In this document: positions 343 to 3,597 of the stretch, piece after piece
Layout of the letters: each line of letters starts with the position of its first letter
Position numbering within the stretch: the first letter of the stretch is position 1
Source of the DNA: Thiolapillus brandeum
GTDB taxonomy: Bacteria > Pseudomonadota > Gammaproteobacteria > Chromatiales > Chromatiaceae
Direction of reading: 5' to 3'
Assembly (NCBI GenBank): GCA_011051425.1
Contig: DRLF01000294.1
Coordinates: 1-18,476, forward strand
DNA: 18,476 bases
Position numbers and translations under genes: made by a program
Notes under the pieces: model-generated
What the model saw: only the letters and a program-made list of their open reading frames with translations
Told to the model about the DNA's origin: nothing
Databases searched by the model: none

Positions 343-366
343 AAAAACCTGCCCCCCTTCAGGGGG
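343..366 (-). terminator. Weak terminator-like hairpin overlapping the stop codon of the beta-helix gene
   Basis: Read on the minus strand, a CCCCC / TGAA / GGGGG stem-loop (366-353) is followed, after a few GC-rich bases, by five T residues (347-343). The TGA stop of the upstream gene sits in the loop. The stem is short and the T run is separated from it, so this is a weak rho-independent terminator candidate. Confidence 0.4.
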
Positions 367-2617
367 AAATACCGTTGCCAACCCGCAAGATTCCCTGGTC
401 CATCACGCGAAAACGGGGGAACAAGATCACCTCGGGCGCAGAATAGATGACCTTGCTGTTGCCATCGATGGAAAGTTCATTGCCAGCACCTGCACCATTG
501 ATATCACCGGCCTTTATCGATACGGTGGTCGCACAATAGTATTCTTCATTGACATAACTGTCCGGCCCCTGAACTTCCAGATCTGTCGTGCCCGGCGGGC
601 AGGACTCATCGTCGATGATGGTAATCTGCGCCTGAGAGGGTGATCCCAGGGCTACACCCACCGGGTTACTCAAGACCAGCGTAAAGTATTCACCACCTTC
701 TGCCTTTGCATCGTCATCGATAGAGATATTCAGGGATTTGCTGGTCTCACCATTCTGCAGCGTAAGCGTACCCGAACTGCTCACATAGTCGCTACCGCTC
801 ATGGCGGTATTGTCAACAGTCGCATAACCCACAGAAACCTGTCCGGCACTGCTGCCGCTACGGTTTACCGTCACGCTGACGCTACCAGCCGTTTCATCAA
901 CATCATAGTTTGCCTGCGCCAGGGCCAACTCAGCCGGCGACTCCGTATACAGGTCATCGGACAATTTACTGGTCGTGCCTGCACCATAGAAATGAATAAC
1001 ACCATTGGCCATTGCCATGCTTTGGGTTCGCAGCCCTTCATCAGCCGTCAGTGAACGGGACAGGGTGGCAGTCCAGTTGCCACTGGCATCGGCAGTGGCT
1101 TCGCTCAAAAATTCCTTTGCCTCGATACGGCCATCCAGATCATCCGCATACAGATAGATCCGGCAATTGGGACAGGCTGCCGAAATAGTGGTGGGTCCAG
1201 GCAATACAGCATCATCACCCTGAGTACCGGTAACAGATGTACCGTTGATGCCGGTCACCTTCGCCGGATTGAACTTGCGCAGTTCTACGGGCACTCCCGG
1301 TGAAGCAAAACGGTAAACATGGTCGGGATGTGTGGCTGCACCGGCATCGATGACCATATTCTTGCGTACAGTAATCCACCGGCCGCTGCCGGCAGCAAAG
1401 CTCTGGGTCAGAATGGCGCTATCGAAATCGGTGCCGTCATCCCCCGGATCGAAACCATTGCGGGTATGCACGATCAGGTTGTTCTCTACCAGAAGTTCCG
1501 TGCCCTGGAGCAGCATCCCCTGACCACATACGCCAGCATCCTTACCGGCCAGATCACGCCCGATGACGTTCAGCGTCACGGTATTCCCAACACCGGCAAT
1601 TTCCATAGTGATCGGCGGCGTATCATTGGTCGACTGCGGGACATGCAAGCCCACCAAGCGATTGTTGGTCACCGTATTGTTATCGCCCGTTACCTGAATA
1701 CCGCGGCCCCCATACCAGAGGCTGGCATTGTAATCCAGCTCCCGAGCGCAGTTTACGCCGGTATCGTGGGGCGCAGGGACATGGCCCTGTGAGTCCATGC
1801 CAATGTAGTTGGCTTCGATCAGGTTGTTGTCACCACCGCTGGTTATGCGGATTGCCCGTTCAAAAGCACCGATGATGCGATTGCCGCGAATGATATTGTT
1901 GTCGGAATCCTCATTCGGCAGGATGATCCCACCCCGGGCCAACGAACGCATCGCCTGTGTCGATGCCGTTGAAGCCAGCGACAATCCACTGCCGTTTGCT
2001 TTCAGGCCCATCCAGTTGTTTTCCACCAGATTGTTACCTTCGTAAAGGATGATCTGGCCACCACCGATAAAACCAAGATTACGGATCACGTTGTTGGACG
2101 TGCGTACTTCGAGGGAGACGCCAAACGTTGGCAGGTTGTCACGATTGGTATTGACCATGATTTTCGGCGCATTTGCCCGTCCTCCGGGCTGCGTATTGCC
2201 GTCGATGGTGACCTGCCCGCTCACATCGGTGATGTAACGTCGCTTGAGCTCCCACTCATAGGACTCATCGATCTGCACTTTCCAGTACTGCAGGGCAGCA
2301 TCATAATTGGGGTCGTTGAGGGGAAGGTTGAATTCGATGGAAATGGGACGATCTGAGTCCGGTCGTGCGCTGGCTTCGACAATTGCCCGCCGCAGCGTGC
2401 ATTTTCCGTCCGACTCGGGAAAAAACAGGGCGCCATCGATATAGGTACAGGTGCTCCGGCTGAAATTGCTGCTGGTCGCCAGGTCTTCCGACGAATTGAC
2501 GACAATGGTTGTCGGCGCCGCCTGCAACTGTGCGGATGCAACCCCGAAGGCACAGCCTGCCAGCAAGGCAAGGTAAGCCTTCGATCTTCGGATGTGTGCA
2601 GTATGAGTGGTTTTCAT
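359..2617 (-). CDS. Secreted right-handed beta-helix protein with CSLREA-like region and Calx-beta domain
   Basis: The protein has 752 residues from the chosen start. Residues 1-33 form a signal peptide (basic N-terminus, hydrophobic core, cleavage near QLQAA). Residues 36-85 (TTIVVNSSEDL...GKCTLRRAIVEA) match the CSLREA pattern that opens many secreted repeat proteins. Residues about 170-390 carry repeated Asn ladders (NNVIRNLGF, NNLVENNWMG, NNIIRGNRIIG, NNLIEANYIG, NNTVTNNRLVG), typical of a parallel beta-helix. Residues about 563-672 are a Calx-beta domain, with the characteristic GSDYVSSSGTLTL and GGEYFTLVLSNP segments and a DD-rich end. The C-terminus (EVILFPRFRVMDQGILRVGNG) resembles a short repeat (IxLxPGFxVxxGxxFxA) often found at the ends of secreted proteins. 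The ATG at 2617 is preferred over an upstream ATG at 2707 because a strong Shine-Dalgarno sequence precedes it and the signal peptide then lies at the N-terminus. A surface or extracellular role, such as polysaccharide binding or adhesion, is inference; no catalytic residues were recognised. Confidence 0.85.
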   Translation of the reverse strand: MKTTHTAHIRRSKAYLALLAGCAFGVASAQLQAAPTTIVVNSSEDLATSSNFSRSTCTYIDGALFFPESDGKCTLRRAIVEASARPDSDRPISIEFNLPLNDPNYDAALQYWKVQIDESYEWELKRRYITDVSGQVTIDGNTQPGGRANAPKIMVNTNRDNLPTFGVSLEVRTSNNVIRNLGFIGGGQIILYEGNNLVENNWMGLKANGSGLSLASTASTQAMRSLARGGIILPNEDSDNNIIRGNRIIGAFERAIRITSGGDNNLIEANYIGMDSQGHVPAPHDTGVNCARELDYNASLWYGGRGIQVTGDNNTVTNNRLVGLHVPQSTNDTPPITMEIAGVGNTVTLNVIGRDLAGKDAGVCGQGMLLQGTELLVENNLIVHTRNGFDPGDDGTDFDSAILTQSFAAGSGRWITVRKNMVIDAGAATHPDHVYRFASPGVPVELRKFNPAKVTGINGTSVTGTQGDDAVLPGPTTISAACPNCRIYLYADDLDGRIEAKEFLSEATADASGNWTATLSRSLTADEGLRTQSMAMANGVIHFYGAGTTSKLSDDLYTESPAELALAQANYDVDETAGSVSVTVNRSGSSAGQVSVGYATVDNTAMSGSDYVSSSGTLTLQNGETSKSLNISIDDDAKAEGGEYFTLVLSNPVGVALGSPSQAQITIIDDESCPPGTTDLEVQGPDSYVNEEYYCATTVSIKAGDINGAGAGNELSIDGNSKVIYSAPEVILFPRFRVMDQGILRVGNGISP

Positions 2618-2626
2618 TCTTGTATA

Positions 2627-2691: not shown

Positions 2692-2760
2692 TAACACAGC
2701 TCATCAAAATTGCTTCAGGTCATTGCCAGGAAACGGGTTTCCCTTTATTCTTTAACAATT

Positions 2761-2906
2761 GTCGTAAAAGCCCTTCCCTGGGCTTTTACGACTCGGATTC
2801 GGAAAAATGCGATTTTCCGAATCCTCCATTTTCAATGACTTACAGCCATCGAAAATGGCGATGCATCCCTGCATCGCGGAGGCTGTCGCCTTTTGCGACA
2901 CCCTCC
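2761..2906. repeat. Array of five consecutive, different palindromes
   Basis: Five inverted repeats follow one another with 0-2 bases between them. (1) 2761-2773 / 2780-2792: 13-bp perfect stem, loop TTCCCT. (2) 2795-2806 / 2813-2824: 12-bp perfect stem, loop ATGCGA. (3) 2826-2836 / 2848-2858: 11 bp with one mismatch, loop ACTTACAGC. (4) 2858-2864 / 2871-2877: 7-bp stem plus an A-T closing pair, loop ATCCCT. (5) 2878-2889 / 2895-2906: 12 positions with one C-C mismatch, loop CTTTT. The stems do not resemble each other in sequence, so this is not one element repeated; only the architecture and the loop (A/T)TCCCT recur. No T run follows any stem, so ordinary terminators are unlikely. The array occupies the right half of the 2618-2937 gap and ends 31 bases before the methyltransferase start. 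I cannot assign it to a named repeat family. Confidence 0.9.
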
Positions 2907-2937
2907 TTCGGTCAGAATCAATTTCCGGGAAACACGC

Positions 2938-3597
2938 ATGATGACAGTCAGCAACAGAGATGCCCGTTACAACATGGCCTATCAGCAGATTCGCCCCTGG
3001 GACGTTTTTGACGATCAGGTGCTGGATATCATGCAGAGCCTTCCCCGTGAGCAGTTCGTTCCTCATGCCTACCGCAGCCTGGCATTTGCTGACACGCGCA
3101 TTCCCCTGGGACATGGTCAGGTGATGATGGAACCCAAACTGGAAGCCCGCATGCTGCAGTCACTGGCCGTCAGGCCCAGCGACCAGATCCTGGAAGTCGG
3201 CACCGGCAGCGGCTTCGTCACCGCCTGCCTGGCCTCACTGGGAAATTCTGTCAGCAGCTTTGACATCTATGACGCGTTTATCAACACGGCAAAAGAAAAG
3301 ATCGCCATGCAGGGTATCAATAATGTTCACCTGCACCTGGGAAATGCATTCGCCGCCGAACTGCCCAGAGAAGGATTCGATGTGATCGCGGTGACCGGTT
3401 CATTGCCTGCCTACAGTGATCAGTGTGAACAGTTCCTCGCTCCCGGCGGACGTCTGTTCATGGTTGTAGGCACATCCCCGGTCATGGAAGCCATACTGGT
3501 CACCCGTCAAGGCGACGAGTTCGTGGAAGAGCACCTGTTCGAGACGGATCTACCACCGCTGGAACTGCTGCCTCAGCCTTCCCGCTTCTCGTTCTGA
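2938..3597 (+). CDS. Protein-L-isoaspartate O-methyltransferase-like protein, atypical clade
   Basis: This 219-residue class I S-adenosylmethionine-dependent methyltransferase resembles the isoaspartate repair enzyme Pcm. Visible features are the N-terminal segment MAYQQIRPWDVFDDQVLD (13-30), the segment REQFVPHAYRSLAF (37-50), the SAM-binding motif ILEVGTGSGFVTACLA (84-99) and the late motif LAPGGRLFMVVG (167-178). Canonical Pcm enzymes carry GQTISQP around residue 60, with a conserved Thr-Ile-Ser. Here the segment reads GHGQVMMEP, so those residues are missing and the substrate is uncertain. I recall similar LGHGQ-MM-P proteins encoded near tolC and waaA in other gammaproteobacteria; that is memory, not a search. 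The start at 2938 (ATGATG) is preferred over an ATG at 2893, which lies inside the palindrome array. The Shine-Dalgarno sequence is weak. The last 25 bases overlap the end of the opposing waaA. Confidence 0.85.
   Translation: MMTVSNRDARYNMAYQQIRPWDVFDDQVLDIMQSLPREQFVPHAYRSLAFADTRIPLGHGQVMMEPKLEARMLQSLAVRPSDQILEVGTGSGFVTACLASLGNSVSSFDIYDAFINTAKEKIAMQGINNVHLHLGNAFAAELPREGFDVIAVTGSLPAYSDQCEQFLAPGGRLFMVVGTSPVMEAILVTRQGDEFVEEHLFETDLPPLELLPQPSRFSF

Follow-up and report, generated by a model that had tools for sequence, protein, structure and literature searches.

A dispersed five-hairpin element of bacterial genomes is probably a non-autonomous DNA transposon

The window analysed here is the whole stretch of 18,476 nucleotides from Thiolapillus brandeum, and the feature under study is an array of palindromes upstream of a pcm-like methyltransferase gene. 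The relevant features of the locus, with the hairpins placed by folding, are listed below.

362–2626, minus strand: gene for a large protein, divergent from pcm; the product has a Calx-beta domain and a NosD match below the cut-off, and may be a surface or secreted protein
2723–2751, plus strand: promoter-like pair TTGCCA-17-TATTCT upstream of the element (one found, 0.7 expected by chance)
2761–2905, plus strand: five-hairpin mobile element, assigned as a MITE of the TCG end type; copies elsewhere align from window position 2760 to about 2908
2761–2792: hairpin H1, 13 bp, loop TTCCCT (AGGGAA on the minus strand), containing the left terminal inverted repeat GTCGTAAAAG and an inner inverted copy of the same repeat
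2795–2824: hairpin H2, 12 bp, loop ATGCGA
2827–2857: hairpin H3, 13 positions, 11 of them Watson–Crick
2858–2877: hairpin H4, 8 bp, loop TCCC, apical hexamer ATCCCT (AGGGAT on the minus strand, which fits ANGGAN)
2878–2906: hairpin H5, 12 positions with one mismatch, carrying the right terminal inverted repeat CTTTTGCGACACCCTC
2906–2910, plus strand: CTTCG, right-hand candidate target duplication; its left counterpart, CTTTA at 2750–2754, agrees at 3 of 5 bases
2941–3597, plus strand: pcm-like protein-L-isoaspartate O-methyltransferase gene, with its start codon at 2938 or 2941

On either strand, positions 2761–2906 fold into five adjacent hairpins that take up almost the whole stretch. The folding energy is -80.2 kcal/mol on the plus strand and -94.5 kcal/mol on the minus strand. 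Shuffled sequences averaged -39.0 and -46.3 kcal/mol, respectively (z = -10.4 and -11.5), and none of 200 shuffles on each strand folded as well. All five inverted repeats that an earlier note, made from the letters alone, had described at this place are thus present, and folding both strands, the check it proposed, returned the full set each way. Its statement that the array holds no classical terminator needs correction, since a consensus scan places terminator-like sites in H2 on the plus strand and H4 on the minus strand (2, against 0.4 ± 0.8 expected by chance). No Rfam family reached its gathering score anywhere in the window. At the left end, where other copies have GAGGAT, about six bases have been changed or lost in this one, positions 2755–2760 reading ACAATT, and the target duplication, judged from its flanking bases, is degraded.

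The window feature belongs to a dispersed element of approximately 150–160 bp, of which it is a single copy. The genome that carries it (2.74 Mb in 479 contigs, 84 percent complete) yielded ten BLAST matches, of which four, the window copy included, are near full length at 87–100 percent identity. Among relatives, a match was recovered in 18 of the 55 genomes searched, own genome included; because up to 15 candidates were scored per genome, the copy numbers are lower bounds. In a near-complete relative assembled into three contigs (G007), the end motif AGGNTGTYGNAAAA occurs 57 times per strand, against none for a reversed-pattern control. Among the matches listed in a pattern scan of named genomes were Sedimenticola sp. 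MAGs, several Gammaproteobacteria MAGs, a Porticoccaceae MAG, a Chromatiales MAG, and MAGs labelled Proteobacteria and Deltaproteobacteria. A model of the hairpin core, whose E-values are rough, matched 49 of 274 genomes of the class, in 37 of 222 genera, and 43 of 398 genomes in a sample of the phylum. These 43 comprise our own genome, a second one of the class, and 41 from other classes, among which 36 belong to one family. The listed core matches outside the class are weaker, reaching up to 79 bits, and nine that were read there keep 29–33 of 33 pairs as Watson–Crick. Searches of plasmid and phage collections at blastn sensitivity returned no match to the element.

From the examined loci we collected 160 full copies, of which 136 measure 145–165 bp, too short for a transposase gene; the element is thus short and non-coding, as MITEs are. 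Three end types were recognized: TTG (CAGGNTGTTGAAAAA, mostly 161 bp, at both ends of 87 copies), TCG (GAGGRTGTCGYAAAAG, the window's type, mostly 151 bp, at both ends of 29), and CTG (GGAASCTCTGAAYAA, about 150–153 bp, at both ends of 21). In the other 23 of the 160 copies, the mismatch-tolerant match assigned the two ends to different types, and these were excluded from the duplication count. The terminal inverted repeats agree, on average, at 13.3 of 16 end bases in the TCG type, 12.7 in TTG and 10.4 in CTG. Target duplications were counted as exact abutting direct repeats in one-type copies with distinct flanks, each set being compared with 500 controls of re-paired flanks. By this measure, TTG ends show an exact 4-bp repeat in 49 of 85 copies (controls: mean 14.4, maximum 25), CTG ends a 4-bp repeat in 8 of 18 (mean 1.2, maximum 4), and TCG ends a 5-bp repeat in 15 of 29 (mean 1.0, maximum 6), so that every end type exceeds all 500 of its controls. 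The pattern YTAR, the target of IS5, fits 44 of the 49 TTG duplications and 5 of the 8 CTG duplications. TTG and CTG targets are non-palindromic, whereas those of TCG copies are palindromic, with a score of 7.41 that exceeds all 100 re-paired controls (6.78 ± 0.17); this type therefore tends to land in palindromes. An inner inverted copy of the end repeat, matching at no fewer than 9 of 10 bases, accompanies the left end in 72 of 86 TTG, 18 of 28 TCG and 6 of 21 CTG copies, and the right end in 51 TTG copies and none of the TCG or CTG copies; this test uses a fixed offset and ignores bulges, and single-copy folds show both H1 and H5 in all three types.

The product of the pcm-like gene matches PF01135 in Pfam at 96.9 bits and falls below the NCBIfam equivalog cut-off (128.9 versus 188 bits). 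We compared 13 full pcm orthologues, our own included, from 15 genomes of the genus. With the core model, none of the 12 others has the element at a comparable score, and the sole other core hit near pcm is weak (39 bits, in L303) and lies on the downstream side. The nearest orthologue, that of G003 (89 percent identical in protein), lacks the element but aligns to either side of it; its promoter-like pair reads TTGCCA-17-TAATCT, and CTTCG is found near the join. Comparison of the same intergenic region in relatives thus revealed absence of the whole unit at the one empty site examined. In the window, the element lies between the promoter-like pair and the pcm start codon, where it most likely makes up almost all of the gene's leader RNA. 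The earlier idea of a structured 5' untranslated region probably holds for the window copy on account of this position, and fails as an account of where the family came from. The companion idea of a dispersed palindromic element or mobile palindrome cluster is borne out by three more near-full copies in the same genome, many in relatives, the target duplications and the empty site.

Insertion sequences of the IS5 family with the same or similar ends were found for two of the three end types, TTG and CTG, in other hosts. In G007, a DUF772 search led to a 1.3-kb IS5-family element at two sites, with ends CAGGGTGTTGAAAAA and CAGGCCGTTGAAAAT and duplications TTAA and TTAG; its 361-residue protein matches NF033581, the IS5-family transposase model, at 272 bits (cut-off 140). 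A second genome (G158) carries five copies of a 1158-bp IS5-family element with CTG-like ends (GGAACTTCTGCAAAA and GGATGCTCTGAACAA, three mismatches to the CTG pattern over both ends), the protein of one copy scoring 352 bits as IS5 family. Four of these copies have exact duplications (TTAA twice, CTAA twice), and the fifth has TTAG/CTAG; two of the five (L349 and L356) directly adjoin a MITE copy, with a CTAA target common to both. DDE_Tnp_1 genes with similar end pairs also occur in G124 and G114. The partners share their ends alone with the MITE, as no hairpin-core match was found in L234, L235 or L344. No DUF772 (IS5-type) match was found in the window's own genome, and among 15 genomes of the genus only four contain such a match, though others carry many copies of the element. 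For the TCG type, no partner emerged from a DDE_Tnp_1 search of 12 genomes or from the pattern AGGNTGTCGNAAAAH in five genomes, and an end-pair scan of the examined loci gave one chance pair (L093). Two intervals of G007 considered as autonomous copies from their end spacing (1885105–1886842 and 1650453–1651904) proved to be ordinary genes between element copies or ends. In a G114 locus (L351, approximately 1320–2698), we also observed a DDE_Tnp_1 element with identical ends GAGCCTGTAGAAAAA, a possible further IS5-like partner.

The dispersal, the end repeats, the fixed-length duplications, the one empty site and the partners for two of three end types are observed; that the transposase of these partners moves the MITE is inferred.

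The hairpins themselves are retained while their stems change. In an alignment made without reference to structure, covering the H2–H4 core of 19 divergent copies (six degenerate rows of 25 were omitted, which favours pairing), both sides have changed in 18 of 33 pairs, and 90.6 percent of cells pair, against 81.3 percent in shuffled alignments and at most 48.9 percent with partners slid; none of 500 shuffles reached any of the measures. Among 30 further matches from the class search (alignment A5), 27 of 33 pairs have changed on both sides, with 186 two-sided versus 8 one-sided cells, in an alignment that favours perfect pairs, as it was fitted to structure by the model and holds mostly the best-scoring copy per genome. 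Folded one by one, 23 of 25 diverse copies show five hairpins, each with four pairs or more; in the degenerate copies L014, L281 and L285, the five hairpins are not all the family's five. Pairing in H1 was read from per-copy folds, since stem registers differ between end types on a joint alignment. In the 39 copies of one genome we counted 41 both-arm changes, 34 of them Watson–Crick, where independent arms would give 6.1; the shared descent of the copies inflates this count. The earlier note had named, as grounds for dropping its proposal, a lack of similar arrays elsewhere and stem changes that are not compensatory; we find arrays in the own genome and in relatives, and two-sided stem changes. 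Its view that architecture is conserved and sequence is not stands for the architecture alone, as the loops and much of the H3 and H4 sequence are conserved too: within the family the stems also show some conservation of sequence, H3 and H4 being recognizable across families.

An apparent sign of strand-specific RNA selection was considered and rejected. Across 202 copies, 239 A.C cells stand against 141 G.U cells (30 lineages versus 5, with 16 equal), but this minus-strand wobble signal is carried by one H3 pair, with 92 A.C cells, and falls to 147 versus 138 without that pair. In single copies, moreover, bases of the H4 loop show no clear advantage in retention over paired bases. Given this lack of strand preference and of better loop retention, the constraint seems to act, strand-symmetrically, on the propagating copies. 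Single copies within a genome decay, so a value of the structure to the host is not demonstrated.

We also examined the genes that face the element. Of 132 copies with enough flank, 115 were used, two misoriented copies and 15 that apparently lie within ORFs having been dropped; the ORF calls are heuristic. These 115 copies face 127 gene 3' ends versus 90 5' ends, and 73 versus 30 within 60 bp. Of the 88 gene 3' ends next to TTG copies, 14 lie exactly at the element boundary. Orientation is balanced: 64 3' ends run into the plus strand and 63 into the minus strand, and 5' ends divide 47 and 43. The enrichment of 3' ends suits a built-in two-way barrier, but target choice alone could produce the same. 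YTAR contains TAA/TAG, and TCG copies sit in palindromic targets; the 3'-end preference is therefore no proof of a barrier.

We consider it probable, at roughly 0.78, that the element is a non-autonomous DNA transposon (MITE) with a five-hairpin body, moved by IS5-type transposases, whose hairpins are kept as palindromes that work both ways. Such an element would move in trans through a DDE transposase, of IS5 type for TTG and CTG ends and of another kind for TCG ends, and each insertion would duplicate 4 bp (mostly YTAR) or 5 bp of the target. Its terminal repeats each fold into a hairpin of their own, H1 and H5, rather than pair with the opposite end. A propagating element would need palindromes that function in either orientation, and the hairpins would be kept on that account. 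The function we favour is a two-way barrier at gene 3' ends, acting as a terminator or as protection of the mRNA 3' end, which would make insertions at stop codons and in terminators tolerable. The window copy, between promoter and start codon, would probably form the leader RNA of pcm.

Other explanations were weighed against this reading. Template switching in quasi-palindromes, which rewrites one arm from the other, would yield two-sided changes without any function. The 186-to-8 ratio in A5, the absence of strand preference and the both-arm excess within one genome are what it would give, although A5 favours perfect pairs and shared ancestry inflates the excess in that genome. A purely mutational process does not predict that loops stay fixed while stems change, however, and we regard this explanation as unlikely, albeit the strongest of the rivals. 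A more doubtful proposal is that the minus-strand RNA binds CsrA/RsmA as a decoy or leader site, the scattered copies titrating or recruiting CsrA; the element would then be a mobile CsrA decoy on a fixed scaffold that has acquired at least three unrelated sets of terminal repeats. The loop motif common to H1 and H4, already remarked on in the earlier note, is real and recurs across the family. Among 202 copies examined, 177 have a four-base H4 loop, and in 160 of these the apical hexamer fits NTCCNT (ANGGAN on the minus strand). All 50 lineage majorities fit, positions 2, 3, 4 and 6 being invariant, position 1 reading A33 G10 T6 C1 and position 5 C29 A10 T9 G2, although these lineages share ancestry and hence are not 50 independent cases. 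The H1 loop contains GGA in 165 of 188 folded copies and forms the full ANGGAN hexaloop in 90, and a CsrA gene is present in 12 of 12 genomes tested. Passages of PMC7652899 give the CsrA consensus as RUACARGGAUGU with an ANGGAN hexaloop; ANGGAN is the RsmE/CsrA loop there, and the common H4 forms approach the consensus. Yet the same passages indicate that very stable stems are possibly unfavourable for CsrA, and the balanced orientation to genes, the loss of wobble preference once a single site is set aside, and the unexceptional retention of the H4 loop in single copies all count against the decoy, as does a motif broken in 3 of the 9 matches read outside the class. The common loops of H2 and H3 are conserved as well, and contain no GGA. 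Across families, we observed mostly RYGYGR in the H2 loop and mostly TTRYN in the H3 loop; we know of no protein that reads either.

The two remaining explanations are far less probable. For a REP/BIME element moved by a RAYT (Y1 tyrosine transposase), which we hold to be very improbable, one may cite the intergenic palindromes, which occur in many copies, a Y1_Tnp match in 11 of the 15 genomes examined in the genus, and TTG-like end-motif pairs in 4 of 26 Y1 loci scanned (L240, L251, L255 and L257), near the Y1 match in L255 and L257. The own genome, at 84 percent completeness, has no Y1 match, however; L240 holds an ordinary copy about 850 bp away, and the pairs in L255 (1398–1431) and L257 (approximately 1716–1792) are short TTG-ended derivatives lacking the core beside partial Y1 matches. 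To our knowledge, neither target duplications nor terminal inverted repeats are expected of the RAYT mechanism, and the element has both. A structured 5' untranslated region evolved in place as a cis-regulator of the methyltransferase gene would suit the position between the promoter-like pair and the start codon, but the lack of the element, at a comparable score, in the 12 other orthologues and the many other genes that copies adjoin refute it as the origin, and we give it scarcely any weight.

Returning to the MITE reading, the element shares with known MITEs its small non-coding body, terminal inverted repeats, YTAR or 5-bp duplications, mostly intergenic placement and, in some hosts, insertion sequences with the same or similar ends. 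It differs in having five separate local hairpins, in that each end folds on itself and the stems covary across families, and in bearing three unrelated end types on one hairpin core. Stable stem-loop folds of MITE transcripts are described in a 2024 review of prokaryotic MITEs (PMC10969869), whose passages on MITEs contain no such hairpin array. Passages of that review also present SPRITE, RUP and BOX of Streptococcus pneumoniae and QMITE2 of Coxiella as small mobile repeats; like our element, they are small and mobile, some being terminator-like or having folded transcripts, but they belong to other hosts, the comparison being one of descriptions. With REP/BIME sequences, the element has in common intergenic palindromes near gene 3' ends in many copies, and is set apart by its terminal inverted repeats, its target duplications and the lack of a Y1 transposase in the own genome. 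CsrA antagonists of the CsrB/RsmZ type likewise present ANGGAN loops, here on the minus strand in H4 and partly in H1; in our element, unlike these, the motif is confined to two of five loops, strand and orientation preference are absent, the whole is mobile, and nothing in the window matches Rfam.

We found no previous account of this element: the window matched no Rfam family, and a literature search among open-licence full texts gave no recognized description, the listed motif-based matches being judged by title and the start of the abstract. Over a sixth of the genomes sampled from the class (49 of 274), and genomes of other classes, would carry this structured mobile element. With one hairpin scaffold, different end repeats, frozen loops and free stems, it offers a natural experiment in which the reasons why small transposons carry hairpins are testable. 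It may alter many genes at their leaders or 3' ends, pcm in the window among them, and if the CsrA reading were true, genomes with many copies would carry a scattered CsrA decoy as transposon cargo.

Some copies depart from the single-unit form. Tandem arrays with a 124-bp period occur in L324 (G052), with cores at 1377–1461, 1501–1585 and 1625–1709, and in L190, with two cores 124 bp apart; their units apparently comprise H1–H4, with no H5 between them, and recombination or one-ended transposition could be the source. Chimeric-looking copies in L131, L195 and L117 adjoin other palindromes of similar loop (for example, CCGCCATCCCTGGCGG in L195), which suggests that the hairpin module is also present in further intergenic elements.
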